From positions 3,286,001 to 3,350,000 of the forward strand of contig NZ_CP094970.1 of assembly GCF_025790165.1 (NCBI RefSeq): a stretch of 64,000 nt of DNA, read 5' to 3'. The notes under the pieces were generated by a model. It was not told the DNA's origin. It made no database searches and saw only the letters and a program-made list of their open reading frames with translations. The DNA is from Solicola gregarius (GTDB lineage: Bacteria > Actinomycetota > Actinomycetes > Propionibacteriales > Nocardioidaceae). Numbering within the stretch: the first letter of the stretch is position 1; each line of letters begins with the position of its first letter. A program made the translations under genes and the position numbers. This document shows positions 1,520-63,536 of the stretch, one piece after another.

Positions 1520-1689
1520 ATGAGCGGCGAGGAAGGCAGCGATCGGAGTGGCCGGCGCGAGGAACGAGCGCCGTCCGCGACGAGAGCGGACGACCGAGCG
1601 CGACCGGCAGGGATGAGCGGCGAGGAAGGCAGCGATCGGAGTGGCCGGCGCGAGGAACGAGCGCCGTCCGCGACGAGAGCGGACGACCG
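1520..1689 (+). repeat. Two tandem copies of a 77-bp repeat, period 93 bp
   Basis: Positions 1520-1596 and 1613-1689 are identical over 77 bp, beginning ATGAGCGGCGAGGAAGGCAG. A looser relative, starting ATGAGCGGCGAGG and keeping GCGGAGTGG, lies at 27344-27430 between two ABC transporter genes, where it is clearly intergenic. The sequence therefore looks like a short dispersed intergenic repeat that has become readable as the N-terminus of MtrB. Confidence 0.75.
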
Positions 1690-53685: not shown

Positions 53686-55131
<1,446 letters not shown>

Positions 55132-56603: not shown

Positions 56604-57578
56604 TCAGGCCTCGTACGTCGCGGCGGCCGCGCGAGCGACCTCGCGCATCTCGGTACGCAGATCGGACGGCGCGAGCACCTCGACGTCGCCGGCGAACGCG
56701 AGCAGGGTGCCGATGGCAGCCCGGCGTATCCGGAAGGTGCATCGCATCAGCACCGAGTCGGGCCCCGACTCGTCCGTGTCGATCGTCGTTCCGCTCACCA
56801 GCATGGGTTGGCACGCCCGGCGCACCTGACGCTCCTCGGCACGGCTGCAGCGGAACTCGAGCGTGATGTTGTCCTCGCCCGGCCGCTCGAACCTCTCCCG
56901 CATCCGCTCCCACTCGGCATCGAGGTCGAAACCCGCCGGTCGTTCGAAGGTCGCGTCGAGCACCGAGAGGGACGTCACCCGCCCGACGCGGTAGGTCTTG
57001 GTCGAGCCGCGATGGTGTGCGAGCAGATACCACCGTCCGCCGTTCTCGATCAGCCCGTAAGGGTCGACCGTGCGCTGCTTCGCACGAGCATCCGAAGCGC
57101 CGCGGTACGACATTCGTACCCGCTGGTTTCGTACCGCTGCCATCCGCAGCGTCGGCAGGTGACGTGAGTCGTCCGGATCGACGAACCATCGCCGGCGGTC
57201 GACATGCACGACATCGCGAAGGTCACGCGCGCGTTCGAGCGTGCGATCGGGAGCGGTCGAGGCGAGCTTGTCGAGCGTCTGCCGCACCTGGCTGCCGAGC
57301 CCGAGGTCGGAGAGCGTGTCGAGGCCGGTGTACGCGAACAACACCTGTGCCTCGTCGTCGGTCAGCGCGCTGACATCGGCCCGGAACCCTTCGAGCAAGG
57401 AGAATCCGCCGTTGCGCCCCCGCTCCGCGTACACCGGCACGCCGGCGGCCGACAACGCCTCGATGTCGCGCATCACCGTACGCGCACTCACCTCGAGATG
57501 GTCGGCGAGCTCGCGCGCGGACATCGACGCGCGACCGCGGAGCAGCAGCATGATCGACAGCAACCGGTCGGCCTTCAT
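56604..57578 (-). CDS. WYL-domain transcriptional regulator (YafY type)
   Basis: 324 residues. N-terminal HTH (MKADRLLSIMLLLRGRASMS, ARELADHLEVSARTVMRDIE), then a WYL domain (VDPYGLIENGGRWYLLAHHR) and a C-terminal WCX region. Ligand unknown. ATG at 57578. Divergent from the DinB-like gene at 57681, which is the most likely target. Confidence 0.92.
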   Translation of the reverse strand: MKADRLLSIMLLLRGRASMSARELADHLEVSARTVMRDIEALSAAGVPVYAERGRNGGFSLLEGFRADVSALTDDEAQVLFAYTGLDTLSDLGLGSQVRQTLDKLASTAPDRTLERARDLRDVVHVDRRRWFVDPDDSRHLPTLRMAAVRNQRVRMSYRGASDARAKQRTVDPYGLIENGGRWYLLAHHRGSTKTYRVGRVTSLSVLDATFERPAGFDLDAEWERMRERFERPGEDNITLEFRCSRAEERQVRRACQPMLVSGTTIDTDESGPDSVLMRCTFRIRRAAIGTLLAFAGDVEVLAPSDLRTEMREVARAAAATYEA

Positions 57579-57601
57579 GCTCACAATCTTCGCAGAAATA
57601 T

Positions 57602-57618
57602 ATGACACAAGACGTCAT
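57602..57618. promoter_or_regulatory. ATGAC-N7-GTCAT inverted repeat between divergent genes
   Basis: ATGAC at 57602-57606 and GTCAT at 57614-57618, between the WYL regulator and the DinB-like gene, in the AT-rich stretch where the promoters should lie. Possible operator for the WYL protein; short, so chance cannot be excluded. Confidence 0.3.
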
Positions 57619-57680
57619 GTATTGCGTGAATGGTGGTTCCTGTCGACGTCAAGGCGGCGTCAGTACGGGAGGAGAACCAG

Positions 57681-58265
57681 ATGAACACCGACCCACGAGG
57701 CACCCTGCGGGACGCGGTCGACCAGGCCGGCGCCCTCGTCGCGGCAACGACGGACGACGCACTCGCCAGGTCGACCCCATGCGACGAGTTCGACGTACGC
57801 GCGCTGCTCAACCACATGGACGGTGTGCTACGCCGGATCGCCCATGTCCTGGACGGCGGAGCGCCGTTCGACGTACCGAGCAGCGTCGACGGGTTCGCGG
57901 ACGACGACCGCGACACGGTGTGGAAGGACGATGCGGCGACACTCGGACAGCGACTCGACGACGACTCCGTCCTCGACCGGATGGTCACCGTGCCGTTCGG
58001 GACCATGCCCGGGAGGGCGGCCATCGCGGTGTACGTCAACGAGCTGACGACCCATGCATGGGACCTCGCCAGCGCGATCGGCCGTCCTGATCTGCTCGAG
58101 GACGCACTCGCCACGTACGCATTGGAGGTCATTCAGGACGCGCTGCCCGAGGAGCCGCGAGGCGGGCCGATCCCGTTCGGGCCGGTCGTCGCGGTCGGCC
58201 CCGACGCAGCTGCGTACGAAAGGCTCGCCGGGTGGCTCGGCCGGGATCCGGCCTGGCGGGCCTAG
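57681..58265 (+). CDS. TIGR03086-type DinB-like metal-binding protein
   Basis: 194 residues of the mycothiol-dependent maleylpyruvate isomerase N-terminal/DinB-like group: STPCDEFDVRALLNHMDGVL carries the first metal His, and VNELTTHAWDLASAIGRPD the second. Members in actinobacteria may be thiol-dependent enzymes. ATG at 57681 with GGGAGGAG eight bases upstream. Probably controlled by the divergent WYL regulator. Confidence 0.87.
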   Translation: MNTDPRGTLRDAVDQAGALVAATTDDALARSTPCDEFDVRALLNHMDGVLRRIAHVLDGGAPFDVPSSVDGFADDDRDTVWKDDAATLGQRLDDDSVLDRMVTVPFGTMPGRAAIAVYVNELTTHAWDLASAIGRPDLLEDALATYALEVIQDALPEEPRGGPIPFGPVVAVGPDAAAYERLAGWLGRDPAWRA

Positions 58266-58341
58266 CGGAATAGCGCATGCGCCGGGGTGGTTGGACCAGG
58301 TACGCTGGAACGGCTGCCCCGGCAGCATTGACAACTCAAGA

Positions 58342-58707
58342 GGGGCTGATCGGTTTCGACTTCGGTCGTACGGATCAGATGAAGCGGGCCGAGAATCCAA
58401 GGTCATCTCGTAAACGTTCCTTGGAAACCACAAGTGCCAATTCAAAGCGCACTGACTTCGCTCTCGCCGCCTGAGGCGGCCTAGCGAAGGGTCAGCCTGG
58501 GAGTGCCTCCGTCCCAGTCACTGGCCTCATTAAGGAGGCTTGCTGCACCTACCCGGTCGCGGGGTAGGTGCGGGACTTTTTCGCGACTGAGCCTGTCGGC
58601 GGCGTGTCTGCTCGAATGCCGAGGCTGAGAAAAGCGTCATGCAGACTGCGCCCGGAGAAGACCTGATGCTGCGCCGAAGGACGCGGGTTCGATTCCCGCC
58701 AGCTCCA
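58342..58707 (+). ncRNA. ssrA: Transfer-messenger RNA
   Basis: 366 nt. The 5' end GGGGCTGATCGGTTTCGAC and 3' end GGGTTCGATTCCCGCCAGCTCCA pair as a tRNA-like acceptor (GGGGCTG with CAGCTCC) and T arm. The terminal CCA is not encoded. The tag frame at 58436-58474 reads ANSKRTDFALAA and stop (resume codon GCC), ending LAA as required for protease recognition. Works with SmpB (55240). The last 15 bases are repeated twice more downstream. Confidence 0.96.
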
Positions 58708-59000
58708 CGATCGATCGGTACCGGTGTGCTCGCGAGGGCGCGAGCCGGTATCGATCGTTGTCTGTCTGGGGGTGCGACCCCCAGGCCCCGCCCGGGGCTT
58801 CGCCCCCGGACCCCCAAAGTGGGCCGGTGTGCGACGGGATCCCGCCAGCTCCACGATCGATCGGTACCGGTGTGCTCGCGAGGGCGCGAGCCGGTATCGG
58901 TCGTTGTCTGTCTGGGGGTGCGACCCCCAGGCCCCGCCCGGGGGCTTCGCCCCCGGACCCCCAAGTGGGCCGGTTTGCGACGGAATCCCGCCAGCTCCAC
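58694..59000. repeat. Two 146-bp tandem repeats beginning with the tmRNA 3' end
   Basis: TCCCGCCAGCTCCAC, the end of tmRNA, recurs at 58694-58708, 58840-58854 and 58986-59000, spaced by exactly 146 bp. The units between are nearly identical (few substitutions) and each holds the hairpin CTGGGGGTGCGACCCCCAG (58766-58784 and 58912-58930). Duplicated tmRNA 3' ends are typical attachment-site scars of elements that integrate at ssrA. The stretch 58708-59058 contains no plausible gene. Confidence 0.8.
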
Positions 59001-59058
59001 GTGGGATCGTTTGTAAGGGATGCGTGTTCCTCGTTCGTGTTTCGCGTAGGAAATGCGT

Positions 59059-59436
59059 CTACTTGGTTTCGTTTGGGTGTGCCGTGTGTACGTCCTCGAT
59101 GAGGACATATCCGGTGACCTTCTTGTTGGTCGTGGTATCGATGAAGTACCAGATGCGGCCGCCGCCAGGAAACTTGTACTGGTACCGGTCGTACTCCTCG
59201 CCCTGGTATGTGCCCCGAGCGAGGTCAGCCTTCAACCGGTAGACCCGCTTGCCGTCTTCCAGCGCGGGTTCGACGCAGAGGTGCTCCCACGCGTCCACAA
59301 TCGCATTGCGGTAGGTGGCGAGGCCGTCCTTCCAGCCCTTCTCTGCCTGCCGGGTGATGAGGACTATCCCGTACTCCGCCCGTTTCAGTGGACGGCGGAC
59401 GAGGTCGTCCTCTCGTCGGGCCTTGCCGCGCGTCAC
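59059..59436 (-). CDS. RelE/ParE-like toxin of a toxin-antitoxin pair
   Basis: 125 residues: VRRPLKRAEYGIVLITRQAE, KGWKDGLATYRNAIVDAWEH, then YRLKADLARGTYQGEEYDRY and RIWYFIDTTT...VHTAHPNETK. The small basic alpha-beta build resembles RelE-type mRNA interferases, and I recognise relatives paired with Phd-like partners in actinobacteria. The ATG at 59436 overlaps the antitoxin gene by four bases. Third-position G/C is lower than in neighbouring genes, in keeping with acquisition. Confidence 0.75.
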   Translation of the reverse strand: MTRGKARREDDLVRRPLKRAEYGIVLITRQAEKGWKDGLATYRNAIVDAWEHLCVEPALEDGKRVYRLKADLARGTYQGEEYDRYQYKFPGGGRIWYFIDTTTNKKVTGYVLIEDVHTAHPNETK

Positions 59437-59891
59437 GAGGCGCGAGGATCCGGGACGACGCTGCCTTCAGGGAGGTACTCCAGGTTGTCAGGTCGACTCT
59501 GGAGGCCAAGGGAGTACGCGATCGCGGTCTCTCGCCAGTTCGCTACCTCCACGCCGAGCCGGTCGAAACGGCCCACCGATGCGCATGCTCGGGCGGTTCG
59601 CAGGAAGTCATCGACGAACCGCTGCCGCGCAGGAGCGTCGAGGAACTCCATCCACGGGAACGACTCCTGGAGGGACCCTGCGAGACGTTCAACAACGTCC
59701 TTATCGAGAAGGGTGGCGCCGATCAAGTGCGCGAGCGCCCCAACCATCTCGCGCTCTTGCGAGGCGTCCTGGTCCTTCGATAGCCGCAGTGCTTCGCCCC
59801 CACGCCGCGTCAGCACGACATCGCCTTCGTTCAGGCGGTCGATCACGTCGTTGGGGTTGCGGAGAAGTTCAGACAGCGTGGCGGTGCTCAT
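59433..59891 (-). CDS. Phd-like antitoxin, long form
   Basis: 152 residues. N-terminal MSTATLSELLRNPNDVIDRL NEGDVVLTRRGGEALRLS-type text is the DNA-binding Phd/YefM fold; the remainder (ALAHLIGATLLDKDVVERLA ... FLRTARACASVGRFDRLGVE) is an extra domain, making it about twice the usual antitoxin length. It precedes and overlaps the toxin gene, the standard order. ATG at 59891; the promoter at 59898-59926 would give a leaderless mRNA. Confidence 0.75.
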   Translation of the reverse strand: MSTATLSELLRNPNDVIDRLNEGDVVLTRRGGEALRLSKDQDASQEREMVGALAHLIGATLLDKDVVERLAGSLQESFPWMEFLDAPARQRFVDDFLRTARACASVGRFDRLGVEVANWRETAIAYSLGLQSRPDNLEYLPEGSVVPDPRAS

Positions 59892-60196
59892 GCCACAAGT
59901 ATGCAGAACTAGTTCAGAACTATCAACGCCTGGTCGCCCCGGGGGATTCTTGCGGCCCCAGCGAGGGATCGAAGCCTCTGACCCCCAGGACGTTATGTGT
60001 AGTCGCAGGTCAGCAGGAGTGCCGCGTTCCCGTACGACGACTCAGGATCGATCGGTACCGGTGTGCTCGCGAGGGCGCGAGCGGGTATCGATCGTTGTTT
60101 GTCTGGGGGTGCGACCCCCAGGTCCCGCCCCCGGAGTCCTGCCACGCGGGCGAGAGTGCCGATGGAGTCGTGAAATTCTGTTGCGGTTGAAGCAGG
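59892..60196. other. 305-bp gap: operon promoter plus a distal copy of the ssrA-side repeat
   Basis: Apart from the promoter, the gap holds at 60046-60134 a fourth, shortened copy of the 146-bp repeat (GATCGATCGGTACCGGTGTG ... GGGGGTGCGACCCCCAGGTC). The toxin-antitoxin genes are thus flanked by direct repeats. Nothing else is recognised. Confidence 0.7.
59898..59926 (-). promoter_or_regulatory. Promoter and operator of the toxin-antitoxin operon
   Basis: On the minus strand TTGATA (59926-59921) and CATACT (59903-59898) are 17 bases apart, close to the sigma-70 consensus. The spacer holds the palindrome GAACTAGTTC (59906-59915) within a direct repeat AGAACTA, a likely site for antitoxin autoregulation. 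The start codon begins only 7 bases after the -10 box. Confidence 0.55.
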
Positions 60197-60736
60197 GTGA
60201 TCGCAATCCTGTCGCGTGTGGACTCCTGGGAGATCGCGGGTGAGCCGCCGCTGCGACTCGAACTCGTCGAGATGCGCCATGCCGAGGCTATGGAGCGGTT
60301 CGAGCTCGCGAACCGTGAGTTCTTCGCCCGGCACGTGAGCGACCGTGGCGACGACTACTTCGAGCAGTTCGAGCAGCGACTGGCGAGTCTGGTGGACGAG
60401 AACCGTTCTGCGCGCAGCCTGTGTTTCGTCCTCGTCGGCTCCGCCGGTGAGGTGGCGGGGCGGATCAATCTGTATGACATCGATCGGCCCGAGGTCACCG
60501 AGCTGGGCTTCAGAGTGGCCGAGCGTGTCCAGGGCAACGGCGTGGCCAGCCGCGCGGTGTTGGCCGCCCTGGGGGTGGCCGGCGCGCGTGGGGTGAGGCA
60601 GGTCGTCGCACGCGCATCGACGATGAACATCGCATCCCAACACGTGCTGGAGAACTGCGGATTCTCGGGCACCGGCCAGATCGAGCCACCCGCAGACTCA
60701 TCGAAGGCCTTTGTCGGCTACCGCAGAACACTCTGA
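60197..60736 (+). CDS. GNAT-family N-acetyltransferase (RimJ/RimL-like)
   Basis: 179 residues. LRLELVEMRHAEAMERFELA at the start, acetyl-CoA site ELGFRVAERVQGNGVASRAV and C-terminal ASTMNIASQHVLENCGFSGT are the GNAT motifs A and B of the RimJ/RimL group. Substrate unknown. GTG at 60197 after AGCAGG. Convergent with katG across a strong hairpin. Confidence 0.9.
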   Translation: MIAILSRVDSWEIAGEPPLRLELVEMRHAEAMERFELANREFFARHVSDRGDDYFEQFEQRLASLVDENRSARSLCFVLVGSAGEVAGRINLYDIDRPEVTELGFRVAERVQGNGVASRAVLAALGVAGARGVRQVVARASTMNIASQHVLENCGFSGTGQIEPPADSSKAFVGYRRTL

Positions 60737-60779
60737 CCGCCACCCGCCCACGGAAGGTGCCGGTCTCGCGGCCCCACGT

Positions 60780-60826
60780 ACGACTGTGCGCCGCGTCCCG
60801 ATGACGGGGAGGCGGCGCACAGTCGT
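60780..60826. terminator. 15-bp inverted repeat between GNAT and katG
   Basis: Arms 60780-60794 (ACGACTGTGCGCCGC) and 60812-60826 are exact complements, loop 17 nt, between convergent genes and 12 bp from the katG stop; likely two-way terminator. Confidence 0.7.
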
Positions 60827-60838
60827 GTCTGTGTCGGG

Positions 60839-63536
<2,698 letters not shown>

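Follow-up and report, generated by a model that had tools for sequence, protein, structure and literature searches.

Repeated ends of the tmRNA gene in Solicola gregarius as probable gene-less, RtT-type units at tRNA and tmRNA 3′ ends

The gene for transfer-messenger RNA (tmRNA), ssrA, of the actinobacterium Solicola gregarius is followed by further copies of its own last 15 bases, and behind these copies lies a putative toxin-antitoxin (TA) gene pair. Are these the remains of a mobile element that once used ssrA as its integration site? The locus was studied in a stretch of 64,000 nucleotides (contig NZ_CP094970.1, positions 3,286,001 to 3,350,000), referred to below as the window, and an earlier note on this DNA had read it as a small integrated island, or as the scar of several integrations, with the TA pair as its only remaining cargo. 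We compared it with other tRNA and tmRNA genes of the same genome (G000), with the single other genome of the genus that was compared (G001), with genomes of the family and with more distant bacteria. We consider it probable that the array consists of RtT-type units without genes, which are located at tRNA and tmRNA 3′ ends and are precisely gained or lost across the tail repeat, and that the TA pair is separate from these units and is not the maker of the repeats.

The features of the locus are collected in Table 1. The tmRNA model of Rfam (RF00023) matched ssrA with 160.8 bits and placed the end of the gene at 58710, versus 58708 with ARAGORN. The 15-base tail recurs at 58840 and 58986, at spacings of 146 and 146, just as the earlier note had described, and the duplicated bases are indeed the 3′ end of the gene, starting in the T-loop at a base that we take, from the tRNA numbering convention, to be T60. 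Tandem Repeats Finder (TRF) scored the array at 579, with 2.1 copies. Unit 2 is 97% identical to unit 1 over 144 positions (BLAST), which supports the proposed recent duplication; the support is less for the fourth, partial unit, which matches unit positions 13-100 at 95% (BLAST). Base-by-base comparison showed that this partial unit starts, at 60046, at the exact base where the unit begins after the tmRNA tail. A repeat beyond the TA pair is therefore present, as had been claimed, but it contains no tail, so that there is no fourth copy of the tmRNA end. A genome search for the 146-bp unit, which had been called for earlier, found it only at ssrA, in three places, all adjacent, in the 4.9-Mb single-contig genome (E ≤ 0.001). 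That the genome is a single contig, and that several other genomes have units as well, speaks against an assembly artefact.

Table 1. Features of the ssrA locus of S. gregarius (window coordinates; GC, guanine plus cytosine)
Feature	Position	Strand	Remarks
ssrA (tmRNA gene)	58342..58708	+	ARAGORN; tag ANSKRTDFALAA; CCA not encoded (CTCCA-CGA)
Tail copy 1	58694..58708	+	last 15 bases of ssrA in their native place, running from the final T-loop base T60 to the gene end
Unit 1 body	58709..58839	+	terminator-like hairpin 58712-58757, GGGGG/CCCCC hairpin at about 58766-58784, GC-rich hairpin; ends in CGACGGGA (58832-58839)
Long hairpin immediately 3′ of ssrA	58712..58757	+	kept in the congener; two compensatory pair changes
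Tail copy 2	58840..58854	+	
Unit 2 body	58855..58985	+	ends in CGACGGAA (58978-58985)
Tail copy 3	58986..59000	+	bare
TA block	59002..60045		62.5% GC versus 68.6% in the window; stops exactly at the start of the unit body
Putative toxin	59059..59436	-	125 amino acids; RelE/YoeB-like fold predicted
Putative antitoxin	59433..59891	-	152 amino acids; Phd/YefM-like N-terminus
Unit 4, partial body	60046..60130	+	first ~85 bases of the unit, without ssrA tail

The tail of each tRNA or tmRNA gene was compared with its own downstream 350 bp. In G000, copies of the gene's own tail of at least 13 nucleotides were found within 154 bp behind five of 46 genes, namely ssrA, tRNA-Val, two tRNA-Pro genes and one tRNA-Ser gene, and the four tRNA-gene units contain no genes. 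In G001, copies of at least 12 nucleotides follow three of 47 genes (ssrA, Pro and Val), and there is one displaced copy in addition. These counts omit one tRNA-Gly match per genome, which is the next tRNA gene, as well as an 11-nucleotide match at tRNA-Tyr of G000 and a 10-nucleotide match at tRNA-Glu of G001. When tails were compared across genes in G000, 1984 pairs of different genes gave 11 matches of at least 12 nucleotides, all of them real downstream tRNA genes. Since this control finds true tRNA genes only, a chance origin of the tail copies is excluded.

The whole units behind Pro and Val genes follow one order: after the tRNA comes a strong hairpin of terminator-like form, then a stretch with complementarity to the tail, then GCCGGGAGGAGGA or a close variant of it, a hairpin with the loop GAGGNACGA, GACGACGGC, and the tail copy. 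The second Pro unit of G000, 52 bp long, is without most of this interior. The interior is common to the Pro and Val units, and the tail copy follows each host gene. A covariance model built from four Pro/Val sequences was run on 294 genomes. Below 1e-8 it gave six matches, every one located behind a tRNA gene: the four training sequences and, as new ones, a tRNA-Leu unit (G168, E 7e-9) and the displaced Pro unit of G001. At an E-value of 0.01, some match occurs in 58 of the 294 genomes, and matches weaker than 1e-8 were mostly taken as noise or dispersed hairpins: among 27 such loci that were fetched, only one, in genome G019, repeats the tail of the tRNA gene that precedes it (tRNA-Ser), and one unfetched match is the known Pro unit of locus L179. 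The Ser units of G019 have tail copies at 110, 226 and 313 and a related interior (model E 2.7e-4); the Ser unit of G000 has the Pro/Val motifs but was not reported by the model. The hairpin motif GCGAGGNACGAGC is also found elsewhere, unlike the ssrA unit. At the tRNA-Val gene of G001 (L201), extra partial tandem copies of CGACGACGGCTCCTGTTGCGCC are present beyond the unit. Far from ssrA, window positions 1520-1689 hold a 93-bp perfect tandem repeat (1.8 copies), located, by eye, after an open reading frame (ORF) resembling a response regulator; it has GCGAGGAACGAGC, the loop motif of the Pro/Val units, twice, with 0.06 matches expected in the window.

The copies agree in where they begin. 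In all 11 copies compared (a set that omits a few known ones, e.g., the near Val152 copy and the Leu copy), identity to the host gene starts at the same gene base, the T that closes the T-loop and stands before CC. The sequence CG[AT]CGG precedes ten of them and CGACGA the remaining one. With the 17 ssrA copies from a genus of the family designated g19, every one of which begins at the T-loop end, 28 copies were compared, and in all 28 the junction falls at the final base of the T-loop; three of the 28 belong to ssrA of the present genus. The right end of the identity varies between 12 and 25 nucleotides, and reaches 60 where unit 2 repeats unit 1. The long hairpin after ssrA, compared in only four sequences, consists of 18 pairs with 98.6% of cells paired, and its covariation value was reached in 30 of 500 shuffles.

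In genus g19, ssrA was matched in 47 of 49 genomes, and the 30 loci returned were examined. At least one tail copy, with at most two mismatches and within 700 bp, is present at 12 of the 30 loci; a strict string rule detects a unit at 15 loci and misses L344, one of the twelve. Variable letters of the tail agree with the host's own ssrA in 25 of 27 copies from a broader set of 93 rows, with G019 counted twice. The 1.87 kb that end with ssrA are 96% identical between the genomes G019 and G123. The alignment resumes at position 2007 of G019 and 1855 of G123; from there, identity is 76% over 490 columns, the first 46 bases past the tail being identical. As can be seen from this comparison, a 152-bp unit is exactly present in one genome and absent from the other, between two 15-bp tails. 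CCA is encoded after the tail at five of 15 unit-free versus two of 15 unit-bearing loci (5/14 versus 2/16 with L344 moved), a skew that would fit replacement of the native end by an inserted unit, though the numbers are small. In the hairpin of the g19 element, two of five stem pairs have changes on both sides (13 sequences). Other ssrA loci carry tail arrays of short period: 45 bp in four copies (L351), 32 bp in three copies near the end of the stretch (L136) and 19 bp in two copies (L339). At several ssrA genes of the family (L022, L023, L027, L028, L035 and others), paired repeats such as TCTTCGCAGAAT...TCTTCGCAGAAT were noticed by eye right after ssrA; they may be recombinase arm sites.

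Repeats with this layout have been known at tyrT of E. coli since the 1970s. In E. coli K-12, the 19-nucleotide tail of tyrV recurs at 178, 356 and 534 with zero mismatches, and each unit contains GGGGAAGGAT, which is complementary to the tail. The Rfam model RtT (RF00391) matched three times at tyrV, above its cut-off, and the record names a small RNA (sRNA), rttR. The E. coli repeats resemble those described here in being tandem units behind a gene, each closing with the last bases of the host gene, with a similar period, and in the tail-complementary stretch inside the unit, which some of the Pro/Val units also have. They differ in that the actinobacterial units open with a strong terminator-like hairpin, and one tRNA locus was examined in E. 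coli, compared with ssrA and several tRNA genes here. Similarity of rtT to bacterial interspersed mosaic elements (BIME) has been reported (PMC2965389).

A scan of 84,980 species for a pair of exact 14-base ssrA tails spaced by 139-169 bp retrieved three other species, an Alteromonas, a Lacimicrobium and a Eubacterium metagenome-assembled genome (MAG); the genome under study and those near to it may be omitted from such a scan, and since the spacing is set by the pattern, it carries no information on the true distribution of spacings. By eye, a terminator-like hairpin lies between the tails in all three, and ARAGORN confirmed a tmRNA gene in two, the Alteromonas stretch beginning too far downstream to hold it.

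Does the TA pair belong to the array? The gene order around ssrA in G001 is the same (smpB, WYL, TIGR03086, ssrA and a katG-type peroxidase gene), and the ssrA tail is duplicated there as well, with a spacing of 167, but TA and GNAT genes are both missing from the interval between ssrA and katG. Tail duplication is thus independent of the TA pair. What the earlier note had named as speaking against an island, repeats in relatives or at other loci, was partly found, in G001 and at tRNA genes. Its statement that no integrase is present was confirmed for PF00589 in the window (serine recombinases were not searched for); the genome has nine PF00589 genes, the nearest of them ~119 kb from ssrA, and there is none within ~100 kb of ssrA in G000 or G001.

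The consequences of a genuine integration can be seen in the same genus. The extra copy found by the Pro/Val model in G001 sits 12.4 kb from a tRNA-Pro gene. Locus L302 (G001:C1:2558800-2573200) is a 12.3-kb element in tRNA-Pro(GGG), with Phage_integrase, RepSA (a pSAM2-type replication initiator) and FtsK/SpoIIIE; judged by these genes, it is an integrative element of the pSAM2 kind. Its far end repeats 43 bases of the tRNA gene exactly, beginning in the anticodon arm; the short-tail unit follows after another 128 bp. A true integration in this genus thus leaves a long repeat, and the position of the unit beyond it indicates that the short-tail unit is a native neighbour, displaced with the original tRNA end. 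L302 and the ssrA array are alike in their location at the 3′ end of a tRNA or tmRNA gene and in the direct repeat, but the element measures 12.3 kb, carries an integrase and left a repeat of a different extent, which speaks against the view that the ssrA repeats are island ends. At L179, the apparently orthologous tRNA-Pro of G000, only the 52-bp unit is present.

The TA assignment was itself examined. The antitoxin gene is the upstream one of two overlapping genes between tail copy 3 and unit 4, and its Phd/YefM match (E 4.5e-4, 20.4 bits) is under the Pfam cut-off of 29.8. The toxin sequence matched nothing in Pfam, NCBIfam, PADLOC or the PDB. Its predicted structure (mean predicted local distance difference test score, pLDDT, of 83) is nearest to YoeB (Foldseek E 0.018) and ParE/RelE (0.041), and the Foldseek search returned nothing at E 0.001. 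Gene order, overlap, a Phd/YefM-like antitoxin and a RelE/YoeB-like predicted fold are shared with type II pairs such as YefM-YoeB and RelBE, which differ from the present pair in that its toxin is without a database sequence match and with a best Foldseek E-value as given above. The pair is probably, but not provably, a toxin-antitoxin system.

The toxin is found in six of the 294 family genomes, this genome included and G001 not, and no tRNA or tmRNA gene was detected next to its relatives in nine stretches scanned (seven distinct places, mostly with 1.5 kb of flank); this, too, gives no support to the view that the pair is island cargo. The closest relative (L199, G287:C333) is 77% identical over the main part, with the match split across two reading frames, and the ORF that adjoins it has a Phage_integrase (PF00589) match. 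On its right-hand side, compared base by base, the TA block has no ssrA tail such as integration would leave. In an ssrA island, the integrated block is bounded by ssrA on one side and by a second copy of the gene's 3′ end on the other, and the TA block is not so placed. The boundaries of the TA block, tail copy 3 on one side and the precise start of a unit on the other, suggest that the junction of tail and unit was its target; the TA pair is probably a separate, later insertion at the junction of tail copy 3 and the unit body. Relatives of RelE and YoeB cut mRNA on the ribosome, and tmRNA rescues such ribosomes; in the present locus, a pair with a predicted RelE/YoeB-like toxin (59059-59891) adjoins the tmRNA gene. 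Since the pair is present in this genome and absent from the congener, this placement is possibly a coincidence.

On the reading that we favour, of gene-less RtT-type units, each unit would comprise a terminator-like hairpin that follows the gene at once, a structured stretch closed by CG[AT]CGG with one or two further bases, and the 3′ end of the host gene from T60 on, the tail copy corresponding to the 3′ strands of the T-stem and of the acceptor stem. Recombination or slippage between the 12-20-bp tail copies would alter the number of units. As to how a gene acquires its first unit, site-specific insertion of a short cassette at the T-loop is probable, since units of different tRNA genes resemble one another inside, yet each has the tail of its own host; the start in the T-loop and the precise presence or absence of a unit are compatible with site-specific insertion.

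A number of observations weigh against this reading. Tail copies are patchy: a first survey of ssrA at the order level found a copy of at least 13 nucleotides in four of 63 rows (two genomes being counted twice and one row being without downstream sequence), and in partial samples of two genomes, G012 has none behind 14 genes and G021 a single 10-nucleotide match among 33 genes. Sequence relationship between the units is uneven. The Pro/Val model reported neither the ssrA units nor the Ser unit of G000 at E 0.01. A profile of the g19 ssrA element did not match the ssrA units of G000 and G001, so that homology of ssrA units across genera is not demonstrated; the candidate homology of the G000 unit with the g19 GTGAATCGAGTGGGCC element, suggestive by eye (AGTGGGCC...GACGGGATCCC), is unsupported by this profile search. 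RF00391 matched neither window positions 57500-61000 nor loci L152, L179, L182, L190, L006, L007, L138, L278, L136, L274 and L302. Complementarity of the left arm of the unit to the tail, assessed in 13 units, has a shuffle fraction of ≤0.01 for Val201, Pro179 and E. coli Tyr and is weak (~0.05) for Leu and Pro182, but is unsupported in the other eight units, including all three ssrA units and the Ser units; the general idea of arm complementarity was rejected, as the ssrA and Ser units do not support it. The junction is not universal either: the E. coli copies, which include CCA, start two T-loop bases before this point, and the Eubacterium copy starts, by eye, even earlier than that. No recombinase is linked to the units in the searches with PF00589 (serine recombinases again lying outside the search). 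The absence of the TA block from G001 may also reflect loss there, two genomes being available in the genus. Lastly, a vertically kept RNA or terminator module that is occasionally deleted explains much of the data.

According to this last alternative, which we regard as possible but somewhat unlikely, a useful transcript or hairpin, a terminator with a tRNA-like minihelix such as RttR may represent, is inherited vertically, its tail is matched to the host gene by selection or gene conversion, and absence results from deletion between repeats. In its favour, both congeners have units at tRNA-Pro, tRNA-Val and ssrA genes that seem to be orthologous, compensatory changes keep the hairpins, the tails track the host variant, and rttR is annotated as a product of the E. 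coli repeat. Yet in the actinobacterial loci a strong terminator-like hairpin precedes or opens the unit, so that transcription of the unit would require read-through; the occurrence of one interior at Pro, Val, Leu and, judged by motif, Ser genes implies past spread between genes, and the distribution within g19 is patchy. Plain slippage, in which 15 bp of the ssrA end were duplicated by chance and then amplified in tandem with neighbouring GC-rich hairpins, without any meaning, would account for the near identity of units 1 and 2 and for the odd-period arrays at L351, L136 and L339. The shared T-loop junction, the common upstream motif and the related interiors at different tRNA genes speak against it and favour insertion of a cassette, and we consider slippage alone very improbable.

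The proposal of the earlier note, that one or several ssrA-specific integrative elements integrated at the T-loop and later shed the bulk of their DNA, so that tails stayed behind, with the TA pair as remaining cargo, has a known parallel. In Dehalococcoides, ssrA islands are described with a 20-bp repeat, a 15-bp motif upstream of it and insertion in the middle of the T-loop; the islands occur in tandem, 15 are without integration modules, and a serine recombinase is involved (PMC3146451). T-loop insertion and a motif upstream of the repeat are features in common with the present units, which differ in being ~50-170 bp long, gene-less, present also at tRNA genes and without PF00589 nearby. 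The proposal is further helped by the TA block, which spans from a tail copy to the exact start of a unit and has a lower GC content, and by the PF00589 match next to the nearest toxin relative. Of the scar reading, the part that stands is the precise presence or absence between 15-bp repeats in G019 and G123; that the repeats are ends of one TA-carrying island is not supported, and against it stand the duplicated tail without TA pair in the congener, the gene-less units at four tRNA genes, the missing tail to the right of the TA block, the 43-nucleotide repeat that a genuine element leaves, and the distance to the nearest PF00589 genes in both genomes. We hold the scar explanation to be quite unlikely.

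With RtT-type units as the preferred reading, a local oddity becomes a class that can be compared: it would include ssrA and four tRNA genes of one actinobacterium, other members of its family, two further unrelated species and tyrT of E. coli. It offers a way to separate true integration scars from native downstream repeats, which island finders based on short repeats can confuse, and the nature of the tyrT repeats becomes testable through comparison. A bolder generalization, which we think unlikely, is that these are widespread gene-less cassettes, mostly of ~100-170 bp, that home to tRNA and tmRNA 3′ ends; each would bring a terminator and a hairpin site in which the 3′ strand of the host gene forms the paired arm, addition and removal would be precise at the T-loop end, and the cassettes would accumulate in tandem like those of integrons, an analogy drawn from the hairpin site and the short tandem units, with the E. 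coli tyrT repeat as a member.

Several other leads were tried and rejected. A phylum-wide pattern matched in 17 of 396 genomes, and among 19 fetched loci only two, both from this genome, adjoin a tmRNA gene. No phage record matched the unit at E ≤ 10, and the 115 plasmid records that matched had, among the 20 matches listed, E-values of ~0.9 over 12-14% of the query. The ssrA tail joined to the unit start was found in no viral contig. Searches of the open-access literature yielded no report of such units in actinobacteria, or at ssrA besides true islands, an absence that says little. In 52 of 56 viral contigs with the 18-base ssrA end, the GGGTT before it (5′ strand of the T-stem) is retained, unlike in the short copies described here. 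Elsewhere in the window, at 54613-54717, CAG and 15-bp (CAACGGTGGCTCCAA) tandem repeats lie just upstream of smpB, and a similar repeat-rich ORF is present in G001.

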